DNA of 64,000 bases, taken from the NCBI RefSeq assembly GCF_020614395.1, contig NZ_CP085324.1, positions 1,431,564 through 1,495,563 of the forward strand, written 5' to 3'. Made by a program: the position numbers and the translations under genes. The DNA is from Salarchaeum japonicum (GTDB taxonomy: Archaea > Halobacteriota > Halobacteria > Halobacteriales > Halobacteriaceae). The notes under the pieces were generated by a model that was given only the letters and a program-made list of their open reading frames with translations, had not been told where the DNA came from and did not search any database. Of this stretch, positions 39,809 to 64,000 are shown piece by piece (the stretch's first letter is position 1; each line of letters starts with the position of its first letter).

Positions 39809-40519
39809 CTACGGCGTGTCACCGAGCGCGCGACGCGCCGACGCTCGAATATCCGCGTACGTCTCGGGGACGGTGATTGTAACGCCCGTGTCCGGCCGGG
39901 AGAGGCCGTCGGGTATCGAGAGTTCGTCCCCGAGTTCGATGGCGGGCGGATAGCCGCGGAGCGTCGGCCACGACCGCTCGGCCGACCACTCTTTCACGGA
40001 CGCGCCGAGCGCGCCGACGGCGGTCATGAGCGCGCCTGGGTCGTCGGGGACGGTGACGGTGGCGTGGGGGCGGTTGTGGCGGGCGCGCGCCCCGACCTCG
40101 ACGCGGGTGCGTTCGGGGAACGACACGTGGAGCGACCCGCCGTCCGCGTGGGGCGCGTCGTACCCGGCGGTCGCGGACGTTCGCGGGAGGGCGACGTACG
40201 TCTTCACGATTCGGCCGAGTTCGAGGTAGTGCGTGCCCTCGGGGAGGTCGCGGGGCGTGGTGGAGAACTCGCCCTGGTAGTCGCCGCTCGTGTCGCGGAG
40301 GCGGGCGTTCACGTCCGATGGAATCACGAGTTCGCTGGCCGTGAACGCCACGGCGTCGTCCACGGGGAAGACGAAGGATTCGGGTGGGGCGGGCGCGAGC
40401 GCGCCCGGGTCGGCGACGCCGAGCGTGGCGGACATGCCGGCGAGGTCGTCGCGGACGGTGAGTTCCTCGGTCTCGGAGTCGAGGGAGAACGAGACGAGAG
40501 AGGAGACTGTTCCAGTCAT
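39809..40519 (-). CDS. N-terminal-domain-only paralogue of the CHAT-like protein family
   Basis: The 236-residue protein aligns over its whole length with the first about 220 residues of the 666-residue neighbour at 40589. Shared segments include FPVDDAV, GEFSTTPRDLPEGTHYLEL, SWPTLRGYPP and DGLSRPDTGVT. It stops just before the second domain and has its own short C-terminal end (ADIRASARRALGDTP). It is 69 bp downstream of the larger gene on the same strand, so the pair probably arose by tandem duplication and is co-transcribed. The remaining domain is of unknown function; it may bind a ligand or the full-length partners. Confidence 0.7.
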   Translation of the reverse strand: MTGTVSSLVSFSLDSETEELTVRDDLAGMSATLGVADPGALAPAPPESFVFPVDDAVAFTASELVIPSDVNARLRDTSGDYQGEFSTTPRDLPEGTHYLELGRIVKTYVALPRTSATAGYDAPHADGGSLHVSFPERTRVEVGARARHNRPHATVTVPDDPGALMTAVGALGASVKEWSAERSWPTLRGYPPAIELGDELSIPDGLSRPDTGVTITVPETYADIRASARRALGDTP

Positions 40520-40588: not shown

Positions 40589-42589
40589 TCAGTCCGCGCG
40601 GTCGTGGGTGGCGCGGCGGAGGGTCGCGGGAGTGACGCGGTCGGTGGGTCGGACGGGTGTGCCGTCGACGCGGGGGAAGGTCGTGGGGTGGCCGAGGAGG
40701 GATGCGGCGTTCGCCGGGTCGTGCGTTTCGGGGTGTTGGACGGCGACGCCGGCGAGGTTGTAGGCGTCGTATTCGACGGGGTGGGTGAACCGGGCGACGC
40801 CGCCGAGTGGGTCGTCCGCGGTGACGGCGAGCCTGGTGGTGAACGCGTGCCGGCCGGACGGTCGTGAGTCGACGTCGATTCGTGCGGGGAAGGCGCTGTC
40901 GTCGGGACGAACGGGAACGTAGGTCGGGTGGCCGACCACGCGGACGGCGTCCCCGAGGTCGGCGTACCGCACGGCGGCTTCGGCGGAGCAGCCGACCTGG
41001 GCGCAGTGGAGGAGGTCGGCGACCCGGTCGGCTGGGAGGCGGTCGGGAGCCGCGATAACTGCGGGGACGCCGCGTTCCGCGAGCGCGACCGCCGCGTCGA
41101 ACGCGTGCGTGCCGGTGACGACGCCGAGACCCAGCGTGGTCGTGTCGAGCGCGTCGAACGCCAGGACGCCGTCGGTGCACGAAATGCCGTCGGGTCGGAC
41201 CGGTCGATCCCAGTACGCGACGGTCGCGTCCGCGGCGGTCTCCCGGACGGTCTCGCGGTCGTCGCTCGCGGTGACGGTGACGGGTTCGGGGAGGGCGGCG
41301 GTCGCGTCGCGGAGCGCGGACGCACGGTCAGAACCCGCGAACACGACGGTCTCGGAGTCGTCGCGCGTGACGTACGGCGTCCGCCGCGCGGCGTCGCGGA
41401 ACGACGGAACGAGGCGGGTGTCGCCGACGGGCGGTACGCCGGCCGCGTGCGCGGTGGCGGCGGACGGGCCGAACGCGCCGGAGTCTATCGTCCGTCGGTC
41501 GTCGTCGACGTGGACGCGCCAGAGGCCGTGGAGGACGTGCGGGAGGAGTTCCGCGTCCGCGATGTCGTCCCGGAGCACCGCGGTCACCGGCCACTGCGGG
41601 ACGGCAGGCGCGAGTAGGTCAGGAGAGACTTCGAGGTACTCCATGAGCTGTTCGGGTATCGAGGACTCGTAGAGGTTCGGCGGGTAGAACGGGAGCCTGG
41701 CCGCGAGTTCGTCGTACTCGTGGCGGGGGAGCGCGTAGTAGCCGTCCGTGCGCGCGAGCGAGTCGAGCACGAGACACGTCGCGAGCAGGCGGTCGACGGC
41801 GGTTTCGAGCGGTTCGTCGGGAGCGATCGGGGCGGTGTAGCCGTTCGAGAGCGACAGCCGCGGTTCGCTCGCGGGTTCGACGGTCGCGCCGAGGTAGTAC
41901 GCGAGCGGCGCGACCCGATAGACGGCCGCAAGCGAGTCGGGGACGCCGAGCGTGACGCCCGTGTCGGGCGTCCGGAGGCCGTCGGGGATGGCGAGTTCGT
42001 CGCCGACCTCGATGCCGGGCGGGTAGCCGCGGAGCGTCGGCCACGACCGCTCCGGCGAGAACTCTCGTATCGACGACCCGAGCCGCGAAACGGCCCGCAT
42101 CAGCGCGCGCGGGTCGTCCGGCACGGTCATCGTCGCCCGCGGCCGGTCGTGCGCGGAGCGCGCACCGACCTCGACGTACGCCGGTTCGGGGAAGGAGACG
42201 CGGAGCACGCCGCCCTCGCTTCGCGGTTCCGTGTACGCGGCGGTCGCCGCGGTTCGGCTCAGCCGAACGTAGGTCTTCACAGGCGCGGCGAGTTCGAGGT
42301 AGTGCGTGCCCTCGGGGAGGTCGCGGGGCGTCGTGGAGAACTCGCCGCGGTGGTCGCCGTTCGCGTTCCGGAGGTAGGCGGTGACGCCGGGCGGGAACTC
42401 GATGGCGTCCGTCGTCGTCCCGACGGCGTCGTCCACGGGGAAGAGGAATCCGTCCGGTGGTGCGGGTTCGTAGCCGGCGGCGTCGAGGGAGAACGTGAAC
42501 GCCCGGTTCGTGAGCGCATCCCGGACGCGAAGATCCTCGCCGTCGAGGGAGAACGAGACGAGGTCGCGGACGTCGCCACCGGAGGTCAT
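40589..42589 (-). CDS. CHAT-like family protein with predicted inactive peptidase domain
   Basis: The 666-residue acidic protein shares domain order with the protein at 58279-60371: an N-terminal strand-rich domain (1 to about 215, SWPTLRGYPP at 182-191), a helical middle (about 225-345) and a C-terminal caspase-like region (about 410-560). Aligning the two, the catalytic His position (GH in HYIGHI) is R462 and the Cys position (NACSSY) is T494 here. So the fold seems kept and the protease activity lost. It is tandem with the short paralogue at 39809. There is no signal peptide or membrane helix. The CHAT call for this copy depends on the paralogue. Confidence 0.65.
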   Translation of the reverse strand: MTSGGDVRDLVSFSLDGEDLRVRDALTNRAFTFSLDAAGYEPAPPDGFLFPVDDAVGTTTDAIEFPPGVTAYLRNANGDHRGEFSTTPRDLPEGTHYLELAAPVKTYVRLSRTAATAAYTEPRSEGGVLRVSFPEPAYVEVGARSAHDRPRATMTVPDDPRALMRAVSRLGSSIREFSPERSWPTLRGYPPGIEVGDELAIPDGLRTPDTGVTLGVPDSLAAVYRVAPLAYYLGATVEPASEPRLSLSNGYTAPIAPDEPLETAVDRLLATCLVLDSLARTDGYYALPRHEYDELAARLPFYPPNLYESSIPEQLMEYLEVSPDLLAPAVPQWPVTAVLRDDIADAELLPHVLHGLWRVHVDDDRRTIDSGAFGPSAATAHAAGVPPVGDTRLVPSFRDAARRTPYVTRDDSETVVFAGSDRASALRDATAALPEPVTVTASDDRETVRETAADATVAYWDRPVRPDGISCTDGVLAFDALDTTTLGLGVVTGTHAFDAAVALAERGVPAVIAAPDRLPADRVADLLHCAQVGCSAEAAVRYADLGDAVRVVGHPTYVPVRPDDSAFPARIDVDSRPSGRHAFTTRLAVTADDPLGGVARFTHPVEYDAYNLAGVAVQHPETHDPANAASLLGHPTTFPRVDGTPVRPTDRVTPATLRRATHDRAD

Positions 42590-52676: not shown

Positions 52677-53432
52677 CTAGTACCACGTCATACCCGCGTC
52701 CACGTTAACGTCTTGGGCGGTGACGTGCCGGTGCTGGACGGCGAGTCGGTACGCGACGTCCGCGACTTCCTCCGGCGTCACCATCTCGTCGAGCATGAGG
52801 TCGCCGAGGTACTCATCCTGCTTCACGGCTTCGGGCGTGGTGCCGCGGGCGTCGGCCTGTTTCTCGATGACGGTCTCGATGCGGTCGCCCGCGACGGGGC
52901 CGGGACAGATGGTGTTCACGGTGACTCCGTCCGCGCCGAACTCGGCGGCGAGCGTGCGCCCGAGGCCGACGAGCCCGAGTTTGGACGCGGCGTACGGGCT
53001 TCGGTTCGGGTAGGGTCGCTTTCCGCCGACCGAGGAGACGTTGACGATGCTGCCGTCGTCGCTGTCGCGGAGCGCGCTCGCCGCGTGTTTCGCGCAGAGG
53101 AAGGGGCCGGTGAGGTTCGTCTCGATGGTTTCGCTCCACTCCTCGCGCTCGACGGTCTCGACCGGCTGTGTGGGGCCGGCGATTCCGGCGTTGTTCACGA
53201 GCACGTCGAGGCCGCCGTACTCGCTGAGAGTTGCGTCGATGGCTGATTCGACGCTCGCTTCGTCGGTCACGTCGCACTCGACGGCGAGCGCGTCCCCGAG
53301 TTCGTCGGCGAGTTGGGTCGTGTCGCTGCGCGCGGCGAGCGCGACCGCGTAGCCGTCCTCGGCGAACCGGCGCGCGATGGCTTCGCCGATACCCTGGCTC
53401 GCGCCGGTGACGAACGCGACGCCCTCACGCAT
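52677..53432 (-). CDS. Short-chain dehydrogenase/reductase (3-oxoacyl reductase-like)
   Basis: The 251-residue classical SDR has the cofactor motif TGASQGIG, NNAG (after LDVLV) and the active site with NVSSVGG and YAASK, and ends with VNVDAGMTWY. It uses NAD(P)H to interconvert hydroxy and oxo groups, probably on an acyl-CoA. It overlaps the acyl-CoA synthetase stop by eight bases, so synthetase, SDR, HAD and small membrane protein form one leftward operon. Confidence 0.92.
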   Translation of the reverse strand: MREGVAFVTGASQGIGEAIARRFAEDGYAVALAARSDTTQLADELGDALAVECDVTDEASVESAIDATLSEYGGLDVLVNNAGIAGPTQPVETVEREEWSETIETNLTGPFLCAKHAASALRDSDDGSIVNVSSVGGKRPYPNRSPYAASKLGLVGLGRTLAAEFGADGVTVNTICPGPVAGDRIETVIEKQADARGTTPEAVKQDEYLGDLMLDEMVTPEEVADVAYRLAVQHRHVTAQDVNVDAGMTWY

Positions 53433-54972
53433 CCTCGTCCACCAGTTTGAACTTCTGCACCTTCCCGCTCGCCGTCCGCGGCAGGTCGTCGACGAACTCG
53501 ACCTCTCGGGGGTGTTTGTACTCCGCGAGGTTGTCGAGGCAGAACTCCCGGATGTCGTCCGCGGTCACGTCGGCGTCGGGCGTCCGCACGACGAACGCCT
53601 TCACCGTCTCGTTCCGACGGTCGTCGGGGATGCCGACGACGGCGGCGTCCGCCACGTCGGGGTGTTCGTAGAGGAGGGACTCGACCTCGCTCGGATAGAC
53701 GTTGTAGCCCGCGGTGTTGATCATGTGCTTCTTCCGGTCGACTATCTCGTAGTAGTTCTCGGCGTCCCGGCGTGCGATGTCGCCGGTGCGGAAGTAGCCC
53801 TCGTCGGTGAACGCCGCGTCGGTCGCGTTCGGGAGGTCGTGGTAGCCCTTCATCACCTGGGGGCCGCGCACGAGGAGTTCGCCGGTCTCGCCGGGTTCGA
53901 CCTCGTTCCCCGAGGAGTCCACGATCTTCGCGTCCGTCATCCGGAGCGGCTGGCCGATAGTGCCGGGTTTGTACCCGAACGACGACCCGACGCCGGTGTG
54001 GGTGGCGGCGGTGGTCTCGGTGAGGCCGTAGCCCTCGCTCATCGCGACGCCGGTGCGCTCCTCGAAGCGCTCCTGGACGGCGACGGGCATCTTCGCGCCG
54101 CCCTCGTTGACGGTGTCGAGCGAGGAGAGGTCGTACTCGCCGAACGACTCGTCGTTCACCATGTCCACGAACATCGTCGCGACGCCGATGAAGCTCGTAA
54201 TCTCGTGCTCCTCGATTTCGCGCATGCAGGTCTCGGCGCTCCACTCCGCGGGGTTCCGGACGAACGCGGTGCCGCCCCGAACCAGCGTCTGCCACGTGGA
54301 GTGCGTGAAGCCCGTGATGTGGTAGAGCGGGAGGAAGACGAGTTCGCGTTGTTCCTCGGGCGGGAGGCCGGTGAACTGGAATCCGGAGAACGCCTGCGCG
54401 CGGAGGTTGCCGTGCGTGAGCAGCACACCCTTCGGCTGCCCGGTGGTTCCGGACGTGTACGGCTGCATCGCGGTCGTGTCGGTCTCGACATCGACGGTCA
54501 CGGGGTCGCCGGACACCTCGTGGAACGCGGTCGTGTCCGCGGTGGATTCGCCGACGGTGAGCACGTCGGGGTCGGCGTCGATGTCGGCGGCGGCCTCGTG
54601 GACGTGTTCCGCGAGCGCTGGGTGGGTGACGACGACGCTCGCGTCGGTGTCGTCGAGCTGGTGCGCGAGTTCGCGGGCCTTGTACTGGGGGTTGACGGGG
54701 GAGACGACGACGCCGGCGCGGAGGCCGCCGAGGATGGTGGTGACGTACTCTGGGCAGTTCGGGAGGTAGAGGAGGAGTCGGTTGCCCTCGGTGTGCCCGC
54801 GGTCGTGGAGGCCGCCGGCGAACGCGCGGGAGCGCTCGTGGAGGTCGCTGAAGGTGAACGAGCGGGTCTCGCCCTCGATGGCGGTGGCGTCGGGTCGGTG
54901 GTCGGCCGTCGCGTCGAACAGCGCGGCGGCGTTCGCGTCCGCAACGCGCTGGAGGTAGTCGGGTACGTCCAT
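53425..54972 (-). CDS. AMP-forming acyl-CoA synthetase (fatty acid--CoA ligase)
   Basis: The 515-residue adenylate-forming enzyme has the P-loop motif YTSGTTGQPKG at 172-182, a GYGLTETTAATH motif in the middle, YFRTGDIARRD, and a C-terminal lysine in RTASGKVQKFKL. It activates a carboxylic acid to its acyl-CoA with ATP. It heads the leftward operon with SDR and HAD genes. The promoter region contains a perfect inverted repeat at 54987-55006, only 15 bp before its ATG, which probably regulates it and the divergent SDR. Confidence 0.94.
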   Translation of the reverse strand: MDVPDYLQRVADANAAALFDATADHRPDATAIEGETRSFTFSDLHERSRAFAGGLHDRGHTEGNRLLLYLPNCPEYVTTILGGLRAGVVVSPVNPQYKARELAHQLDDTDASVVVTHPALAEHVHEAAADIDADPDVLTVGESTADTTAFHEVSGDPVTVDVETDTTAMQPYTSGTTGQPKGVLLTHGNLRAQAFSGFQFTGLPPEEQRELVFLPLYHITGFTHSTWQTLVRGGTAFVRNPAEWSAETCMREIEEHEITSFIGVATMFVDMVNDESFGEYDLSSLDTVNEGGAKMPVAVQERFEERTGVAMSEGYGLTETTAATHTGVGSSFGYKPGTIGQPLRMTDAKIVDSSGNEVEPGETGELLVRGPQVMKGYHDLPNATDAAFTDEGYFRTGDIARRDAENYYEIVDRKKHMINTAGYNVYPSEVESLLYEHPDVADAAVVGIPDDRRNETVKAFVVRTPDADVTADDIREFCLDNLAEYKHPREVEFVDDLPRTASGKVQKFKLVDEDA

Positions 54973-54986
54973 GCCGTGCTATTTTG

Positions 54987-55006
54987 TAACATTTGCCATT
55001 ATGTTA
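54987..55006. promoter_or_regulatory. Putative operator: perfect inverted repeat in a divergent promoter
   Basis: TAACAT, an 8-bp spacer TTGCCATT, and ATGTTA form a perfect 6+6 inverted repeat, one base short of extending to 7+7. It sits in the about 97-bp AT-rich gap between the acyl-CoA synthetase (start 54972) and the SDR (start 55070), where a regulator could control both. A TATA-like GATTTATTACC lies at about 55028-55038 for the rightward gene. The regulator itself is not in the window. Confidence 0.5.
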
Positions 55007-55069
55007 ACGGTCGCTCCGGCGGACGCGGATTTATTACCGATGAACCGAAAACGGGTAGATGTCTTAACA

Positions 55070-55846
55070 ATGGTAAGCAGATTCAGCGTGGCGGGCGACA
55101 CCGCCATCGTCACCGGCGCGTCCTCCGGCATCGGTCGAGCAATCGCGGAACGGTTCGCCGCCGACGGCGCGAACGTCGTCGTCTGCTCGCGTGAACAGGA
55201 GAACGTCGACCCCGTCAGCGACCACATCAACGACGGCGACTACGAGGGAACCGCCCTCGCCGTCGAGTGCGACGTGACCGACCGGGACGCCGTGGACGCG
55301 CTCGTGCAGGCGACCGTCGAGGAGTTCGGGTCGGTGGACGTGCTCGTGAACAACGCGGGCGCGTCCTTCATGGCTCCCTTCGAGGACATCAGCGAGAACG
55401 GCTGGAAGACGATTGTGGACATCAACCTCACCGGCACCTATCACTGCACGCAGGCCGCCGGCGAGCACATGCGGGAGAACGGCGGCGGGCGCGTCGTGAA
55501 CCTCGCGTCCGTCGCGGGCCAGCGCGGTAGCCCGATGATGAGTCACTACGGCGCGGCCAAAGCGGGCGTCATCAACCTCACCAAGACGCTGTCCTACGAG
55601 TGGTCGGGCGACGACGTTCGCGTGAACTGCATCGCGCCCGGGTTCGTCGCGACGCCCGGCGTCGAGTCCCAGATGGGCGTCAGCGCGGACAACATCGAGC
55701 GCGACGACGTGCAGCGACGCATCGGCACGAGCGAGGAAATCGCCGACCTCGCGCAGTTCCTCGCCAGCCCCGCGTCCTCGTACATCGTCGGTGAGACGGT
55801 GACCGCGGCGGGCGTCCCGCGCATCGAGGAGTCCCCCGAAATCTGA
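55070..55846 (+). CDS. Short-chain dehydrogenase/reductase
   Basis: The 258-residue SDR has TGASSGIG (15-22), NNAG (94-97) and the catalytic S147, Y160 and K164 (YGAAK). It resembles 3-oxoacyl reductase and 2-hydroxy-ketone dehydrogenases. Start at 55070 is supported by the TATA-like box about 35 bp upstream; an in-frame ATG at 55040 lies too close to that box. Its TGA overlaps the ATG of the following TPP enzyme (TGATG), so the two act together, probably on a 2-oxo or 2-hydroxy acid. Confidence 0.92.
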   Translation: MVSRFSVAGDTAIVTGASSGIGRAIAERFAADGANVVVCSREQENVDPVSDHINDGDYEGTALAVECDVTDRDAVDALVQATVEEFGSVDVLVNNAGASFMAPFEDISENGWKTIVDINLTGTYHCTQAAGEHMRENGGGRVVNLASVAGQRGSPMMSHYGAAKAGVINLTKTLSYEWSGDDVRVNCIAPGFVATPGVESQMGVSADNIERDDVQRRIGTSEEIADLAQFLASPASSYIVGETVTAAGVPRIEESPEI

Positions 55847-57516
55847 TGGGATACTCGGGCGCGGACCTCTTCGTCGACACCCTCGAACAGTACGGCGTCC
55901 AGCACGTCTTCGGGAACCCGGGCACCACCGAACTTCCCGTGATGAAGGCGCTCGGGGACAGCGACCTCGACTACGTGCTCGGCCTCCACGAGGACGTGGC
56001 GGTCGGGATGGCGGCGGGGTACGCGACGACGCGGCGCTACCACGCGGACGACGACGAGTCCGTGCTCCCCGTCGGGGTGGCGAACCTGCACGTCGCGCCC
56101 GGACTGGCGCACGGCCTCGGGAACATCTACGGCGCGAGCGTCGCGGGCGCGCCGCTCGTCGTCACCGCTGGCAACCACTCCACGGAGTTCCGCCACGAGG
56201 AACCGATTCTCTCCGGCGACCTCGTGGAGATGACCCAGCAGTTCACGAAGTGGAGCGCGGAAGTCCTCGACGTCGAGGCGCTCCCGTCGATGCTCCGGCG
56301 GGCGTTCCGCGTCGCGCTGACGCCGCCGACCGGCCCCGTCTTCCTCGGCCTCCCGCTTGACGTGATGATGGCGGAGACGGACGCCGCGCCCGAGCGCCTG
56401 GGAGCGATTCCGACCGGCGGCCGCGGCGACCGCGGGCAGGTCGAGCGGGCGGCCGAGGCCTTCGCGGACGCGGAGAACCCCGTGCTCGTCGTCGGTGACG
56501 GCGTCGCGCGCGCCGGGACTGACGCCGTGGACGCCGCGGTCGAGTTGGCGGAGGCGGCGGGTGCGCGCGTGCACGCCGAGATTCTCGCGTGCGAGGTGGA
56601 CTTCCCGGCGAGCCACGACCAGTGGGTGTCCTACATCCCGCCGGACGAGGACACCGCGCGCACGCTCCTCGACACCGACATGGTCGCGTTCGTCGGGTGT
56701 TCGACGAACACGACGCTCACCGCGCACTCGGGCGACCTGGTGCCGGACGCGACGTTCGTCCACATCGGCGACGACGCGTGGCAGCTCGGGAAGAACCAGC
56801 CCGCGGACGTGGCCGCTCTCGGCGACCCCGGCGAGACGATGGCCGAAATCGCCAGCGAGGTCGCGTCCCGCGTGAGCGACGACGAGCGCGAGGGACGGCT
56901 GGAGCGCGTCGCCGCGATGAAGCAGATGGCGCGGGCGGAGATGGAGAGCGACGACGAGACCGACGACCCGCGGCGGTCGAAGGGCGAACTCGTGGACGCG
57001 CTCCGTGACGCCGCGCCCGACGCCTACATCGTGGACGAGGGCGTGACCGCGAAGTACGAACTGCTCACGCGGTGGCCGCTCGAACCCGAGCAAGCAATCT
57101 CGAACAAGGGCGGCGGCCTCGGCTACGGCCTCCCCGCGTCCGTCGGCGCGGCGCTCGCCGAGTCGATGCGCGACGACCCCCGGCAGGTCGTCGGGCACGT
57201 CGGCGACGGCTCCTACCTCTACTACCCGCAGAGCCTCTACTCGGCGGCGCGCTACGACCTCGACCTCACCGTCGTCGTGCCCGACAACCGGAACTACCGC
57301 ATCCTCAAGAACAACATGCAGGGGTTGTTCGGGGAGGGCGAGTACGAGTACGTCGGGATGGACTTCGACCCGCCCGTGGACATCCCGAAGAACGCGGAGA
57401 GCCACGGCGCGACCGGCGTGCGCGTCGGCCCCGATGACGACCTCGACGCCGCGCTCGGCGACGCGCTCGGCGAGTCCGGCCCGACGGTCGTGGACGTTCT
57501 CGTCCACGACAACTAG
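55846..57516 (+). CDS. Thiamine-diphosphate-dependent decarboxylase, benzoylformate-decarboxylase-like
   Basis: The 556-residue protein starts with FVDTLEQYGVQHVFGNPGTTELPVM, a segment characteristic of benzoylformate and related aryl-2-oxoacid decarboxylases, with E49 (GLHEDVAVGMAAGYA) as TPP-activating residue. The pyrophosphate domain has VGHVGDGSYLYYPQSLYSAA. It should decarboxylate an aromatic or branched 2-oxo acid to the aldehyde. It is translationally coupled to an SDR. Substrate identity is inference; other 2-oxoacid decarboxylases share the motif. Confidence 0.85.
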   Translation: MGYSGADLFVDTLEQYGVQHVFGNPGTTELPVMKALGDSDLDYVLGLHEDVAVGMAAGYATTRRYHADDDESVLPVGVANLHVAPGLAHGLGNIYGASVAGAPLVVTAGNHSTEFRHEEPILSGDLVEMTQQFTKWSAEVLDVEALPSMLRRAFRVALTPPTGPVFLGLPLDVMMAETDAAPERLGAIPTGGRGDRGQVERAAEAFADAENPVLVVGDGVARAGTDAVDAAVELAEAAGARVHAEILACEVDFPASHDQWVSYIPPDEDTARTLLDTDMVAFVGCSTNTTLTAHSGDLVPDATFVHIGDDAWQLGKNQPADVAALGDPGETMAEIASEVASRVSDDEREGRLERVAAMKQMARAEMESDDETDDPRRSKGELVDALRDAAPDAYIVDEGVTAKYELLTRWPLEPEQAISNKGGGLGYGLPASVGAALAESMRDDPRQVVGHVGDGSYLYYPQSLYSAARYDLDLTVVVPDNRNYRILKNNMQGLFGEGEYEYVGMDFDPPVDIPKNAESHGATGVRVGPDDDLDAALGDALGESGPTVVDVLVHDN

Positions 57517-57558: not shown

Positions 57559-58233
57559 ATGTATGGAGCGGGGCGAACGGACGTGGAATTCGAGGGCGTC
57601 CTCGAACGCCTGAAGGAGGAGGGGAGTTCCCTCCTCGTCGTCGGAGACGTCCCCGGAGAGGCGTACGCCCGCGCGTCCCGCCGAATGTTCGGCGACGACG
57701 ACCACGCCCCCAGACAGCGCGTGCTCGTCGTCGGCGGCGGCGCGCGCACCACGCTCCCGTCCCGCGTCCGAGAGCCGCGACGACGCGACAGCGACACCGT
57801 CATCACGCACGGCACGAACGCCCGGCGCGCCGTCGCGGACGCGGGCGTCACGCCCGATATCACGCCGCGCGCGCACGTCGCCGCTGGCGACACGAACGTG
57901 CTCGGTCGTGCGGTGCTCGAAACCATCGCGTCGCTCGACGGCGAGTTCGCGCCGGGCGAACTCCGCCTCGGCGTGGATACCCTTCAGACGCTTCTCGACA
58001 CCGCCGGCGAGTTCCCGACGTTCCGCACCGTGGACTTGCTCTCGGAGCGCGTGCGCCGCGAGCGCGGGATGGCGCACTTCCGCCTCCCGAAACCCCGGAG
58101 CGACCAGCACGTCCGCCTGCTCGAACCGCTGTTCGACGCCGTCGTGGAACTCCGCGTGACCGACGGCGTGGAACAGCGCTGGAGCCTCCGGGACGAGGAC
58201 GTGGTGTCGGAGTGGGTTTCTCTCGACGCCTGA
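57559..58233 (+). CDS. RecA/KaiC-like haloarchaeal protein without P-loop (DUF7504-like)
   Basis: The 224-residue soluble protein follows the order of KaiC/RecA-like domains: first strand SSLLVVGDVPGEAYARAS where a Walker A would be, but with no GKT/S; then RVLVVGG, GELRLGVDTLQTLLDT (Walker B-like) and a final strand pair with GVEQRWSLRDEDVVSEWVSLD. It is probably a nucleotide-binding fold that has lost hydrolysis. I think it belongs to a haloarchaeal family of unknown function (DUF7504-like, from memory). The ATG at 57559 is preferred over the GTG at 57544 because a TTTATTT box lies 28 bp upstream. It is 45 bp before the CHAT-like gene on the same strand. Confidence 0.65.
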   Translation: MYGAGRTDVEFEGVLERLKEEGSSLLVVGDVPGEAYARASRRMFGDDDHAPRQRVLVVGGGARTTLPSRVREPRRRDSDTVITHGTNARRAVADAGVTPDITPRAHVAAGDTNVLGRAVLETIASLDGEFAPGELRLGVDTLQTLLDTAGEFPTFRTVDLLSERVRRERGMAHFRLPKPRSDQHVRLLEPLFDAVVELRVTDGVEQRWSLRDEDVVSEWVSLDA

Positions 58234-58278
58234 GACGACAACACCCTTTTGACTGGTTCGCCGCGTAAGGCGATTCGT

Positions 58279-60371
58279 ATGGAGGAGCGAACCGGGGATG
58301 TGTTCGACGACGCGGCCGGTATCGGCGCGCGAATCGACACGCCCCCGCAGGGGGGGTTGTCGGTGTTCGACCCCATCGGTCGAACGCGGATTCGCGTCGA
58401 GACGGACGCGGAGAACGTCCGACAGCAGGGCGCGGAAGACCGGTTCCCGATGCCGCTCGACGCGGCGGTTTCGTTCCGAACGGACACCACACGTTCCCGG
58501 TGGTGGTCGCGATTCACGTCCGGCAGGCGGACGGGACGCACGTCACGCAGACCGACCACTTCGCGTTCGAGGAACTGCCCGCGGGCGAGTACGTGCTCGA
58601 CCTCGCGGCCCCGATAAAACTCTACGTGCGCGCGGCGGGGCCGATGACGGTTCGGTCGGACGCGGACACGACGGTCATCGACTTCGACGGGGAGACCCGG
58701 GTGGCGGTCGGGGCGCGGTCGTTCCACGATTCGCCGGCGGGGACGGTGACGACGACCGACGACCCCCGCGACGTGATGGCGGCGGTGAACGCGTTCGGAC
58801 ACGCGCTGAAGACCCAGGAGCCGTCGCGGTCGTACCCGACGCTCCGCGGCCACCCGCCCCGTCTCGAACGCGGGGACGAACTCGTGATTCCGCCCGCCCT
58901 GAAAGCCCCGGAGACGGACGTTCGGATGGCGGTTCCGCCGCGGTTCGAGTACATCTATCCGGCGGTGTCGCTCGCGTACTATCTCGGCGCGCGACTGGTG
59001 CCCGGCGAGACGCCGGAGATTCGAACCGCGGACGGGTTCACGTACTCGCTCGACCGCGAGGCCGGGTACGAGCGGACGGTCGCGCGCACGCTGAAGCAGG
59101 TGTTCGTGTTGGACTGCGTGGCGCGCACGGAGGGCTACTACGAGGTGCCGTTGTTCGAGCGCGCGGCGCTCGAAGCGTCCCTCGACATCTCGTTCCCGGA
59201 CGCCCGGGAGGCGTCGCCGACGGAGCGCCTCGCCACGTACCTCTCGGTGCCGTTCGAGGCCGTGGAGCCGTACTGTCCGACGTGGAAGCACACGGCGGAC
59301 GTGACGCCGAGCGCGGACTACCTCGAACTCCTCCCCTACCTCGTGGACGAACTCGCGGTGGTGCGGACGCCGACGGACGACGCGGTCGCGAGCGCGACCG
59401 AGCAGGCGGAGACGGTGCGCGAGTTCTACCGCGCGACGGACGGCGGAACGAACGGCGGCCGGTACGTCCGGCCGGCCGCGGCGGACTCCGTCGAGCAGTC
59501 GTGGGCGGGCGAGGGCACGCCCATCGGCGCGAGCAAGGCGATGGTGGAGGCGTACGAGAACCGCATCAACCGCTCGCTCGCGGCCGGCGACATCAGCATC
59601 ACCGTCGTCTGCAACGACGCGGACATGGTCGAGGAGCGGGACATGACGCACACGGTGTACGGGTCGCGCGACCAACTCCCGTTCGACGTGCGCCAGCACG
59701 AACGCCTCACGAAGGCGGAACTCAAGGAGGTGTTGGCGGCCGAGACGGACTTCCTGCACTACATCGGCCACATCGACGAGGAGGGTATCGAGTGCGCGGA
59801 CGGGAAGCTCGCGCTCGACGACATCGAGACGACGGGCGTCGATGCGTTCTTCCTGAACGCGTGTTCGTCGTATCGCGCCGGTTCGAAGCTCGTGGAGGCG
59901 GGCGCTATCGGCGGTATCGTCACGCTGAGCGACGTGTTGAACAACGCGGCGGTGACGATGGGGCGGACGCTCGCGCGCCTCCTGAACGTCGGGTATCCGC
60001 TGAACGTCGCGCTCGAAACCGCGCGCAACGAGAGTTACGCGGGCGGCCAGTACGTCACCGTCGGGGACGGCGGCCTCGGCATCGTCCAACCGGAGTCGAA
60101 CCTCCCCGACCTCGTGGAGGTGACAGACGTGCGGGACGACACTGTGGACATCACGTACCGGACGTTCCTCACGCGGTCGTTCGACCTCGGGACGATGATG
60201 GCGCCGACGATACGGAACGAGTCGATGTACTATCTCGCGCCGGTGAAGGACGGACTGACGTACACGCTGAGCGTCGAGGAACTAGTGGAGTTCGTGCAGC
60301 AACAGACGCCGATTCGGTTCGAGGGGTCGTTACACTGGGCGGATACGTTCGATTTCTCGCGGTTGGATTAG
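58279..60371 (+). CDS. CHAT-like (caspase-fold) peptidase-family protein, interrupted by one frameshift
   Basis: From the ATG at 58279 about 69 codons match the N-terminal domain of the paralogues (RFPMPLDAAVSFRTD). The frame then shifts by one base at about 58483-58491 and stays open to 60371 for a further about 625 residues. Restored, the protein is about 695 residues: N-terminal domain with SYPTLRGHPP, helical middle, and a C-terminal caspase-like domain with the dyad H in LHYIGHI (codon 59769-59771) and C in FLNACSSY (codon 59862-59864), plus a TLSDV...ARLLN.GYPLNVAL tail. CHAT domains are cysteine peptidases related to separase and caspases. Its TAG overlaps the stop of the convergent microprotein gene. 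Confidence 0.72.
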
Positions 60372-60508
60372 GGGCCGTTGATGGCGACGTTGCCGGCGGA
60401 GACTGCGCCCGTCTGGGCGAGGAGGAGCGTCATCGTGAAGAGGACGCCGATCATGCGGGGGTTGTCAGTGAGGAACGATGCGATCTTGCCCTGGTTGCTT
60501 TCGGACAT
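60368..60508 (-). CDS. 46-residue signal-peptide-like microprotein
   Basis: The small gene has a polar N-terminus (MSESNQGKIASFLTDNPR, net charge near zero), a hydrophobic stretch from about residue 19 to 36 (MIGVLFTMTLLLAQ) and an AxA-like TGAVSA site, leaving an 8-residue tail GNVAINGP. It may be a signal-peptide-bearing or single-pass membrane peptide. It resembles small haloarchaeal proteins listed as DUF7503 (from memory). The strongest AT-rich promoter of the window lies directly upstream. Its stop overlaps the CHAT-like gene's stop by four bases (TTAG), tail to tail. Confidence 0.7.
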   Translation of the reverse strand: MSESNQGKIASFLTDNPRMIGVLFTMTLLLAQTGAVSAGNVAINGP

Positions 60509-60567
60509 TGCAATCGTTCATATCACGGATTTTTAGATAAATATTTTTTATATATTCACACACGTGT
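60509..60567 (-). promoter_or_regulatory. AT-rich promoter of the microprotein gene
   Basis: Reading leftwards, a TATA-like TTTATCTA (60533-60541) centres 28 bp upstream of the ATG at 60508, fitting a leaderless start. Next to it lies a run of about 30 A/T bases, by far the most AT-rich in the window. An 8-bp palindrome ACACGTGT at 60560-60567 is a possible regulator site. The rest of the gap to 60696 holds the promoter of the binding-protein gene (CTTATGTG box at about 60661-60668). Confidence 0.6.
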
Positions 60568-60696: not shown

Positions 60697-62061
60697 ATGG
60701 TTAACGAAGGTAGTCAGAACAACGATGGGCGTTGTTCTGGTAACGAACCGGAGGGGGATCGAAACATCGTTAGCGATGTCAGGGCGAACGCGGATCGGCG
60801 GACGTTCCTCAAGGGAACGGGCGCGGTCGGCCTCGCGGCGTCCGCTGGCTGTCTCGGGGGCAGCAGCAGCGGCGACGCGCCGAGCGGTACGTTCACGGTC
60901 GGCGTCCTCACCTCGCACACGGGCACGGAGAACCCCATCGGGAACTCCATCGCGCGCTCCGCCGAACTCGCCGCGGAGGAGCTGAACGCGGACGGCGGCG
61001 TCCTCGGGAACGACGTGGAGGTGTCCGTGAAGACGACGAACGAACAACCGCAGCGCGGGAAGACGAAGTACGAGGAACTCACGGTCAGCGAGGACGTGGA
61101 CTTCACGACCGGCGTGTTCACGAGCGAAGTCCTCCTGAACATCATGGACAGCATCGCCAGCCAGCAGAAAGTCCACATGACCGCGGGCGCGGCGACCCCC
61201 GAGGCATCCACGATGCTGACCGAGGACTACGAGCAGTACAAGTACTGGTTCCGCACCGGCCCCGTGAACGCGCACTTCCTCGGCGCGAACATGGTGGACT
61301 TCGCGGAGGCGAACTTCTCCGACATGGGCTGGGACTCCGTCTACGTCCTCACCGAGGACTACACGTGGACCGAACCCGTGGACGAAGTTCTCCGGAACCA
61401 GCTCGCGGACGCCGGCGTCGAAGTCGCGGGCATGAAGCGGTACGCGGGCGAGACGAGCGACTTCTCCACCATCTACGACCAGGTGGAGGCGTCCGGCGCG
61501 GACGCCGCGTTCGTCGCGATGGCGCACTCCGGTAGCACCGCCATCGTCCAGTACGCGAAACAGCAGCGGCCGTTCGCGTTCGGCGGCATCCACGTGCCGA
61601 TGCAACTCCCCTCGTACTGGAGTCTCGTCAACGGCGCGTGCGCGTACGGCATCACGCAGAACACCGCGACTCCGGAGTCCGAAATCACGGAGAAGACGGT
61701 TCCCTACGCGGAAGCGTACAACGAGAAAGTCGGGAAGTATCCCGTCTACACGGGCTACATCGCGTACGACGCCGTGAAGCAGTACGCCGCCGCGGCCGAG
61801 AGCGCGGACTCCCGGAACCCCGACGACATCGTCTCGGAACTGGAGAGTTCGAGCTTCACCGGCACCGCGGGCACCCTCCGGTACTACGGCCAGGACGAGG
61901 AGTACCCGCACGACATCGTGTACGACGAGACCGGGGAGAACGGCGTGAACCCGCTCTGGCTCCAGTGGAAGCCGAACGAGGACGGCGACGGCGGCAGTCA
62001 GACGGCGATCTACCCGGACAACCTCGCGTCGGGGTCGTACGAGAGTCCGCCCTGGGTGTAA
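60697..62061 (+). CDS. Branched-chain amino-acid/amide-type ABC transporter substrate-binding lipoprotein (Tat-exported)
   Basis: The 454-residue protein has a twin-arginine motif RRTFLK at 34-39, a hydrophobic segment and a lipobox with C52 (AASAGC), so it is exported folded by Tat and anchored by lipid outside the membrane, as usual for haloarchaea. The mature part is a type I periplasmic-binding fold with TFTVGVLTSHTG and GGVLGNDVEV. It belongs to the HAAT family that includes LivJ and amide/urea-binding proteins. The n-region before the arginines is unusually long (33 residues) and its DNA can form two hairpins. It is followed one base later by the permease genes. Confidence 0.92.
   Translation: MVNEGSQNNDGRCSGNEPEGDRNIVSDVRANADRRTFLKGTGAVGLAASAGCLGGSSSGDAPSGTFTVGVLTSHTGTENPIGNSIARSAELAAEELNADGGVLGNDVEVSVKTTNEQPQRGKTKYEELTVSEDVDFTTGVFTSEVLLNIMDSIASQQKVHMTAGAATPEASTMLTEDYEQYKYWFRTGPVNAHFLGANMVDFAEANFSDMGWDSVYVLTEDYTWTEPVDEVLRNQLADAGVEVAGMKRYAGETSDFSTIYDQVEASGADAAFVAMAHSGSTAIVQYAKQQRPFAFGGIHVPMQLPSYWSLVNGACAYGITQNTATPESEITEKTVPYAEAYNEKVGKYPVYTGYIAYDAVKQYAAAAESADSRNPDDIVSELESSSFTGTAGTLRYYGQDEEYPHDIVYDETGENGVNPLWLQWKPNEDGDGGSQTAIYPDNLASGSYESPPWV
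60715..60779 (+). promoter_or_regulatory. Two consecutive inverted repeats inside the 5' coding region of the binding-protein gene
   Basis: CAGAACAACG (60715-60724) and CGTTGTTCTG (60730-60739) form a perfect 10-bp stem with loop ATGGG. ACATCG (60764-60769) and CGATGT (60774-60779) form a 6-bp stem with a four-base loop. Both lie within the first about 28 codons, before the Tat motif. They could be regulator sites or an mRNA structure controlling translation. Confidence 0.5.
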
Positions 62062-62062
62062 G

Positions 62063-62926
62063 ATGGCGCTGCCACTGACCGACGTCGTCGCGAACGCCGT
62101 GATGATGAGCGCGCTGTACGCGCTCGTCGCCATCGGCTTCACCCTCATCTTCGGGGTGGGCGGCGTCCTCAACCTCGCGCACGGCGCGACCGTCACCATC
62201 GGCGCGTTCAGCGCGTACTACGTCTCGGAAGTGTTCGGGTACAGCATCTGGGTGGGCGCGCTCGCCGCGCTCCTCGTGCCCGCACTGTTCAGCGCGGCGC
62301 TCTACCGGGGGATGATTCGGCGCGTCGAGGACGACCCGATAACGGTGATGATTCTCACGCTCGTCACCGCCATCGCCGTCGAGGAGATCATCAAGACCGT
62401 GTTCGGCACCCAGCCCGCGGTCATCTCCTCCCTGCTCACAGGACAGGTGTCCATCGCGGGCGGCATCCAGGCGAACAACCTCCTCGTGTTCGGGCTGTCC
62501 TGGGTCATCATCGGCCTCCTGTTCTTCGCCATCAACTACACGAAGACGGGGAAGGCCATCCTCGCGACGAGCATGTCCACGAAGGGCGCGTCCCTCGTCG
62601 GCATCGAGAGCGACCGCATGTACCTCTACACGTGGGTGCTCGCGGGCGCGTTCGCCGGCCTCGCCGGCCTCTTCCTCGGGTCGATTCAGACCGCGTCCTG
62701 GAGCATGGGGCGTTCGCCGCTCGTGCTGTCGTTCAGCATCGTCGTGCTCGGCGGCATCGGCTCCATCCGCGGGAGCGTCATCGGCGCGTACATCATCGGC
62801 TTCCTGGAGACGTTCACGATGTCGTACGTGGACTCCTCGCTCAGCGGCCTCGCGTCGCTCGTGGTACTGGTCTTGATACTGCTCGCGAAACCCGAAGGCC
62901 TGTTCGGCCGTGAATTCACCGAGTGA
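62063..62926 (+). CDS. livH: ABC transporter permease, LivH type
   Basis: The 287-residue membrane protein has about eight helices and the LivH signatures FTLIFGVGGVLNLAHGATVTIGAF near the N-terminus and GKAILATSMSTKGASLVGIE with VLGGIGSIRGSVIGAYIIG in the EAA-like cytoplasmic loop. It forms half of the transmembrane channel for the HAAT-type uptake system and docks the ATPases. It starts one base after the stop of the binding-protein gene. The ATPase genes are expected beyond the right edge. Confidence 0.92.
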   Translation: MALPLTDVVANAVMMSALYALVAIGFTLIFGVGGVLNLAHGATVTIGAFSAYYVSEVFGYSIWVGALAALLVPALFSAALYRGMIRRVEDDPITVMILTLVTAIAVEEIIKTVFGTQPAVISSLLTGQVSIAGGIQANNLLVFGLSWVIIGLLFFAINYTKTGKAILATSMSTKGASLVGIESDRMYLYTWVLAGAFAGLAGLFLGSIQTASWSMGRSPLVLSFSIVVLGGIGSIRGSVIGAYIIGFLETFTMSYVDSSLSGLASLVVLVLILLAKPEGLFGREFTE

Positions 62927-62928
62927 CG

Positions 62929-64000
62929 ATGTCGGACACACTCACCTCGAAGCTGAACCCGCTGTCGCTCCCGCTCCGCCAACAACTCGGCCTGCTCGCG
63001 CTCGCGCTCCTGGGCCTCACGCCGTTCTGGATGGGGTTCCTGTACGCGGGCGACCAGGGCCTCCTGCACATCCGCACCATCACGATAGCGATGTTCATCG
63101 GGATGTTCGCGATGAGCTGGGATTCGGTGTCGGGCTACACGGGCCAGATAAGCTTCGGTCACGCGGTCTTCTTCGCCATCGGCGGGTACGGGAGCGCCCT
63201 CCTGAACCTCGGGTGGGGCGTCCCGCCGGTCGCGGCGGTCGCGCTCGGCACGGTGCTGGCGGCGGTCGCCGGCCTCCTCATCGGCGTGCCCGCGCTCCGC
63301 CTCGAAGGCCCCTACCTGTCGCTCGTGACGCTGGTCGCGCCGCTCATCCTCCTCCAGATATTCATCTTCCGGAGCGACGTGTTCGGCGGCGAACTCGGCA
63401 TCTCGAACCCCGACCCGCTCGTCTCGACGAGTGGGTTCGCGCAGGAGACGTACGTGTTCTTCTACGTCGCGTTCGCGCTGTTCGTCGCGATACTCGCCGT
63501 CCTTCTCGCGGTGACGCGCTCGGACGCGGGGTCCGTGCTCACGGCGATTCGGGAGGACGAGGACGCCGTTGCGGCGTCCGGCCTGAACCCGGCGAAGTTC
63601 AAGACGTTCGCGTTCGTGCTGTCCGCGAGCGTCGGCGGGCTGGCGGGCGCGGTGTTCGTGCACACGCCGATGGCGAGTCCGACGCCGAGCCAACTGCTCG
63701 CGCAGACGGTGAGCATCGAAGTCATCATCGCCGCCGTCCTCGGCGGGATGGGAACCATCGTCGGCGCGGCGCTCGGCGGGATGTTCCTCAGCGTCTTCCG
63801 CAGCCAGCTCAGCAACGTCGGCCTGACCGTTCCCGGTCTCGACGTGAGCGTCGGCGACCTCGACCTCGTCATCTTCGCCGTCGTCACCCTGATAATCCTA
63901 TTCGCGCTCCCCGGCGGCGTGCTCCGCTGGGGGTTGGTCGCGGGCCGGAAGCTCATCGGGGCGGACAGCGCGGCCGCTGACGGCGGCCGGACGCCGGTCG
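62929..64000 (+). CDS. livM: ABC transporter permease, LivM type, 3' end cut by window edge
   Basis: About 357 residues are visible from the ATG at 62929, two bases after the livH stop, running off the right edge. LivM landmarks: AMSWDSVSGYTGQISFGHAVFFAIGGYGSALL, ALRLEGPYLSLVTL, and LTAIREDEDAVAASGLNPAKFKTFAFVLSA, with VLGGMGTIVGAALGG. It is the second channel half of the uptake system. The visible part is already full LivM length, so only a short C-terminal tail is missing. Confidence 0.92.
   Translation, partial: MSDTLTSKLNPLSLPLRQQLGLLALALLGLTPFWMGFLYAGDQGLLHIRTITIAMFIGMFAMSWDSVSGYTGQISFGHAVFFAIGGYGSALLNLGWGVPPVAAVALGTVLAAVAGLLIGVPALRLEGPYLSLVTLVAPLILLQIFIFRSDVFGGELGISNPDPLVSTSGFAQETYVFFYVAFALFVAILAVLLAVTRSDAGSVLTAIREDEDAVAASGLNPAKFKTFAFVLSASVGGLAGAVFVHTPMASPTPSQLLAQTVSIEVIIAAVLGGMGTIVGAALGGMFLSVFRSQLSNVGLTVPGLDVSVGDLDLVIFAVVTLIILFALPGGVLRWGLVAGRKLIGADSAAADGGRTPV

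Follow-up and report, generated by a model that had tools for sequence, protein, structure and literature searches.

A predicted caspase-fold peptidase of haloarchaea and its convergently encoded microprotein

Across the haloarchaea, a CHAT-type peptidase of clan CD with a predicted caspase fold and a microprotein of ~44 residues, DUF7503, form a near-obligate convergent pair. The peptidases are a core haloarchaeal family with a named partner microprotein, and a third protein, the RecA-like DUF7504, is an optional member of the module. We describe the module from a window of Salarchaeum japonicum DNA (the whole stretch analysed, 64,000 nucleotides), where it comprises the following features.

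57559..58233, plus strand: DUF7504 protein, 224 aa (PF24336, E 2e-45, 155.9 bits, cut-off 27)
58279..60371, plus strand: CHAT-type clan-CD peptidase gene, whole extent as drawn from its relatives
58486..58492, plus strand: site of a 1-nt deletion, at ~58489/58490, from DNA alignment to the same-genus relative L003
58500..60371, plus strand: 623-aa ORF for the C-terminal part of the peptidase, catalytic domain included (PF12770 match below threshold)
59769..59771, plus strand: codon of the catalytic His (HYIGH motif; H497 of L003), the same in all 78 homologues aligned
59862..59864, plus strand: codon of the catalytic Cys (LNAC motif; C528 of L003), the same in all 78 homologues aligned
60368..60508, minus strand: DUF7503 microprotein, 46 aa (PF24335, E 2.5e-17, 62.6 bits, cut-off 27)
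60530..60549, minus strand: AT-rich, TATA-like and promoter-like element, 22-41 nt 5' of the microprotein start, read from the sequence

A first-pass annotation had outlined three open reading frames here, a RecA-like protein (57559-58233, plus strand), a frame with a His-Cys dyad ending at 60371 (plus strand) and a 46-aa frame (60368-60508, minus strand) whose stop overlaps that of the peptidase. All three are present, and the stop codons of the peptidase and the microprotein have the four bases 60368-60371 in common. The module is flanked by an acyl-CoA synthetase, SDR and TPP-enzyme group (53425-57516) and by branched-chain-type ABC transporter genes (60697-63999), and we saw no sign in the window of a function common to the module and these metabolic and transport genes.

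Linkage of the peptidase and the microprotein

A survey of 293 genomes of the order recovered the peptidase from 268 and DUF7503 from 249: both occur in 249 genomes, the peptidase alone in 19 and neither in 25, while no genome has DUF7503 without a peptidase. All 25 peptidase-free genomes (20 listed by name, the other five being those absent from both listings) also lack DUF7503, with a hypergeometric P of about 1e-24 that ignores phylogeny. In a complete listing for the 27 genomes of a phylum sample, 36 of 36 DUF7503 genes converge on the 3' end of a gene for the peptidase. Likewise, a convergent peptidase was present in all 30 loci seeded with DUF7503, and the microprotein in 66 of the 75 named, CHAT-seeded loci with enough sequence. 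In most loci the stop codons of the two genes overlap or all but touch, and nearly every microprotein of multi-copy genomes has a peptidase of its own. Given the 36 convergent arrangements out of 36 and the co-occurrence over 293 genomes, the linkage is not due to chance, and the pairing is so constant that the peptidase and the microprotein almost certainly work together. Outside the haloarchaea, a distant relative of the peptidase appeared in only four sampled genomes and DUF7503 in none of those sampled.

DUF7504 behaves differently. Its gene lies 5' of the peptidase gene in the window, separated by 45 nt, and the two are probably on the same transcript; it was directly upstream of the peptidase in 33 of 75 testable loci. 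It is a multi-copy family, with eight copies in the S. japonicum genome, and a comparison of two listings for another genome (G189) places 10 of 25 DUF7504 genes just 5' of a peptidase. Furthermore, it is found in genomes that contain neither the peptidase nor DUF7503. DUF7504 is thus a larger, independent family and an optional member of the module, so that the co-occurrence expected by the first-pass annotation is borne out for the peptidase and the microprotein, far more strongly than could be told from the window, and fails for DUF7504 as an obligate component, whose role as a sensor, put forward in that annotation, is no more than putative.

No fourth conserved gene emerged when the neighbourhoods of 80 loci were clustered, since the clusters obtained occur in at most 20 or so loci and apparently reflect local synteny. 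Nor did we find, in the same 80 loci, a receptor or import gene conserved beside the microprotein, and a gRAMP/Cas7-11 or Csx30 neighbour was neither present in the window nor noticed as a conserved gene in those loci. PADLOC returned no match for the three proteins and no part of the module was found in phage records, so a known defence system or a viral origin is not supported. Some copies of the module are carried on large plasmids.

A few genomes depart from the common arrangement. Genome G175 contains five near-identical orphan DUF7503 genes, scattered and without a peptidase neighbour; the three that we read (L163, L167 and L171, each around 1501-1638 on the minus strand) are in repeats of roughly 170-290 nt with unrelated flanks, as if the gene moved on its own. 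In genome G056 (L189 1008-1297, plus strand) two identical tandem DUF7503 genes face one peptidase, and genome G072 (L190 572-7806) has three tandem peptidase genes with an intact dyad and no DUF7503.

The peptidase: reading frame, fold and clades

The first-pass annotation took the CHAT-like gene to be intact. Its dyad is, with both codons present in the window and the His-Cys pair found in every microprotein-linked peptidase and in 78 of 78 aligned homologues, but its reading frame is not, because a 1-nt deletion at ~58489 separates a conserved N-terminus from the ORF that carries the dyad. At this site the window reads GGACACCA-CACG and L003 reads GGACGCGATCACG, one base fewer in the window, and the gene of L003 is a single open frame. 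The N-terminus, starting at ATG 58279 (MEERTGDVFDD...), is in a different frame from the ORF that begins near 58500; its 72 aa match intact L003 at 91%, and many other relatives, whose frame is open over about 700 aa, match it too. The C-terminal ORF has 92% amino acid identity to L003, a dN/dS of 0.15 and no further stops. As the rest of the ORF is thus healthy, the frame was either interrupted by a mutation of very recent date or only appears broken through a sequencing error. Programmed frameshifting was considered and rejected, because the gene is one uninterrupted frame in L003 and in the other relatives listed.

The curated CHAT model of Pfam does not claim this protein: PF12770 scores 16.5 bits against the window ORF and 15.5 bits against L003, for a cut-off of 24, and the best match in a scan of 28 family members has an E-value of 3.8e-5. 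These low scores explain why the family has been hidden. We found no Pfam TPR match in the 28 members; the L003 model has helices at residues 263-331. A search of PDB sequences with the peptidase profile gave nothing meaningful, and the fold is seen only via the model. The AlphaFold2 model of intact L003, built on a 78-sequence alignment (pLDDT 89.8, pTM 0.91), gives residues 335-603 a caspase-like fold, in agreement with what had been proposed for the C-terminal region. It is closest to gingipain RgpB (Z 20.1) and separase (Z 19.3), followed by SAVED-CHAT (Z 18.5, rmsd 2.3 over 169 residues), the DdvA anti-sigma factor (Z 17.1) and the TPR-CHAT protein of Craspase (Z about 15), with legumain and caspases lower (Z about 11). 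The model therefore suggests that the window protein folds like a CHAT peptidase and predicts that it works like one.

The S. japonicum genome also contains paralogues of the peptidase, two of them in the window.

40589-42589, minus strand: full-length paralogue, 666 aa, peptidase family member with the His-Cys dyad replaced
39809-40519, minus strand: truncated paralogue, 236 aa, peptidase family member with the N-terminal third (one domain) only
G000:C1:775848-777746 (L185 2834-4840, minus strand in L185): single-copy paralogue with an intact dyad, no DUF7503, member of a 23-member clade

The two in the window, which the first-pass annotation did not mention, adjoin each other 16 kb from the module. 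Across haloarchaea, paralogues with a dead dyad form one clade of 13 members (support 1.0), sister to the microprotein-linked lineage, and a search of whole genomes found no DUF7503 beside them. The clade of 23 members retains the dyad and also lacks DUF7503. The microprotein-linked peptidases group in a clade of 89 members (support 0.93), a few of which have no microprotein, and a search for overlooked microproteins next to peptidases without DUF7503 yielded none that was convincing. Because the dead-dyad and 23-member clades are both without DUF7503, the microprotein-linked peptidases constitute a distinct lineage, in which, most simply, the pairing arose once.

Anatomy of the microprotein and of DUF7504

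An alignment of 116 distinct microproteins reveals a fixed order of parts. A short, polar N-terminus is followed by the motif [HN]P[RK]M, in which Pro is present in 116 of 116 sequences and Arg or Lys in 114, with Gln in the remaining two; then by a hydrophobic core of 12 residues with near-invariant Phe and Leu, by [ST]QAG and x[VA]A[AG], and by a variable tail of 7-9 residues. Gly-Pro is the C-terminus in 106 of 116, and the Gln lies 16 residues from the C-terminal end in 87 sequences and 15 in 19. Mean column entropy is 0.75 bits in the HPRM motif, 1.2 in the core, 2.8 in the tail and 0.1 in the GP end. The window copy has the same parts (NPRM, the hydrophobic core, AQTGAVSAG and the tail NVAINGP with its GP end). 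Such an anatomy is what one would expect of a Sec signal peptide that yields a product of eight residues, and equally of a single-pass protein with a short outer tail. The element upstream of the window gene also has counterparts elsewhere, since the A+T content at most positions from -28 to -38 is 80-96%, with 74% at -31, across 117 loci.

DUF7504 had been described as a RecA/KaiC-like protein without Walker A, and both parts of that description hold. In Foldseek and VIA comparisons, its AlphaFold2 model (pLDDT 86, pTM 0.86) matches KaiC (Z 15.5, rmsd 3.0 over 180 residues), and also FlaH, PH0250 and BcsE, while its sequence profile yields only sub-significant KaiC matches around the Walker B region. 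The aligned sequences have GSxLLVVGxVP where the P-loop is expected, with the Lys and Ser/Thr of Walker A (GxxxxGK[ST]) missing. Lacking Walker A, DUF7504 is probably not an ATPase.

Possible roles of the module and likeness to known systems

We favour, if only tentatively, a role of the microprotein as the dedicated membrane partner and putative substrate of the peptidase, with DUF7504 as an optional regulator. The module would then consist of a cytosolic caspase-like cysteine peptidase and of the microprotein, whose gene converges on the 3' end of the peptidase gene, with DUF7504 upstream in about half of the loci. The microprotein may sit in the cytoplasmic membrane, its short N-terminus inside and its tail of 7-9 residues outside. 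Once switched on, perhaps by DUF7504 where this is present, the peptidase would cut the microprotein, most likely at [HN]P[RK] where the chain enters the membrane, and so release or convert it; a stress response, death or signalling are the downstream effects considered. In favour of this are the constant convergent pairing, the caspase-like fold and the invariant dyad, together with the absence of DUF7503 beside dead-dyad paralogues in genomes searched whole. CHAT substrates are commonly encoded beside the protease (PMC9729208), and the nearly invariant P-[RK] would fit a substrate, because prokaryotic caspase homologues of the p20 type cleave after basic residues (PMC6426788). A basic specificity is not certain, however, since Craspase cleaves Csx30 after Leu (PMC9729208). 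Three further observations weigh against a substrate: the positive-inside rule also predicts a basic residue before the core, which could simply set topology and is replaced by Gln in two microproteins; an intact-dyad sister clade without DUF7503 indicates that the peptidase fold does not need the microprotein; and the five orphan DUF7503 copies of G175 have no CHAT neighbour.

The main rival of a substrate role, possible though not likely, is that DUF7503 gives rise to a secreted peptide signal. A Sec-like cut after AxA would free a peptide of 7-9 residues, nearly always with Gly-Pro at its end, and the peptidase would take part in the response or clear away precursor that had not been exported. 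An n/h/c anatomy with V/A-A-A before the cut and G after it, where positions -3 and -1 are almost always small (116 sequences, by inspection), the near-fixed length of a tail that is hypervariable inside and constant at its end, the different tails of paralogous cassettes within one genome, and a strong promoter-like element of the microprotein's own are all consistent with a signal. Yet the core and QAG are conserved far beyond the needs of a mere signal peptide, some microproteins lack GP, and there is no conserved receptor or import gene nearby, although the peptidase itself could be the receptor. We regard as doubtful the fuller proposal that DUF7503 is a family of peptide signals (mature form of ~8 residues, Gly-Pro end), each with its own peptidase to sense, mature or answer it. 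In our judgement the microprotein is likewise unlikely to stay uncleaved in the membrane and to control or position the peptidase, whether as an anchor, as an inhibitor or as an activator. Such a stable partner would suit the obligate pairing with peptidases whose dyad is intact, and also the strong conservation of the transmembrane-like core and its Gln, but it leaves unexplained both the fixed GP after a variable tail interior and the orphan copies. The module might also serve cell death or antiviral defence in the manner of gasdermins or toxin-antitoxin pairs, with a toxic membrane peptide freed on infection or stress; this reading overlaps with the substrate role and seems to us improbable. 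It would agree with the fold common to the defence proteases Craspase and SAVED-CHAT, with the plasmid-borne copies and with the cyanobacterial caspase homologue that cleaves, and so disarms, the antitoxin encoded next to it (PMC7935541); it is at odds with the empty PADLOC and phage-record searches, with the lack of conserved defence neighbours noticed, and with a near-universal presence in haloarchaea, unlike that of patchy defence islands. Finally, that the neighbourhood is inherited synteny of unrelated genes is highly improbable: in its favour, the genes are convergent and not co-transcribed, but the flanking genes vary while the pair persists, multi-copy genomes included, and the convergence of 36 out of 36 contradicts it.

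With its fixed pattern, variable tail and Gly-Pro end, the microprotein is a concrete candidate for archaeal peptide signalling or membrane control and, were it indeed a peptide signal, the pair would give Archaea a system of peptide communication defined at the gene level. According to a long-standing view, Archaea have no relatives of caspases. Haloferax volcanii has a strong caspase-like activity, to which the original paper assigned no gene, that cuts after Asp and ignores trypsin substrates (PMC3615174). Haloferax species carry the module, and both DUF7503 and DUF7504 occur in H. volcanii. A core peptidase family with a predicted caspase fold and a named partner makes this old problem directly testable in a genetically tractable archaeon; whether the activity is that of the module peptidase is a question and not a claim of ours, because the activity is Asp-specific. 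A survey of archaeal p20-type caspase homologues reported no pseudo-enzymes among them (PMC6426788), and the dead CHAT-type clade described here belongs to a different branch, outside the model of that survey.

Like SAVED-CHAT and Craspase (TPR-CHAT/Csx29 with Csx30), the haloarchaeal system combines a clan-CD fold and a His-Cys dyad with a partner gene next door. Unlike them, the window peptidase falls under the Pfam CHAT cut-off and has no CRISPR, SAVED or gRAMP neighbour. In place of a larger protein, its partner is a microprotein of 44 aa that is membrane-bound or exported, and the system is near-universal within a single class of archaea. The best structural matches over the whole domain are separase and gingipain R (Z 19-20), but at 9-16% identity; gingipain is secreted and separase acts on cohesin, and the N- and C-terminal beta domains of the haloarchaeal peptidase were barely covered by the search. 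DUF7504 resembles in fold the KaiC/RecA-type ATPases, BcsE, FlaH and PH0250, from which the lack of Walker A sets it apart. In cyanobacteria, the CHAT protein HetF acts in a pathway with the short exported peptides PatS and PatX, which have a fixed C-terminus; this is a resemblance only, since the peptides are not homologous to DUF7503 and the genes and organisms differ.

The first-pass annotation had called the system new, which is true only in part: DUF7503 (PF24335) and DUF7504 (PF24336) already bear Pfam names, while neither is mentioned in the literature searched, which included few subscription papers, so that an earlier description is possible. The same mostly non-subscription literature held no paper on the CHAT domain together with haloarchaea. 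In all, the DUF names and a CHAT-type fold with a neighbouring partner were already known, and what is new is the lineage-wide core pairing with a microprotein.
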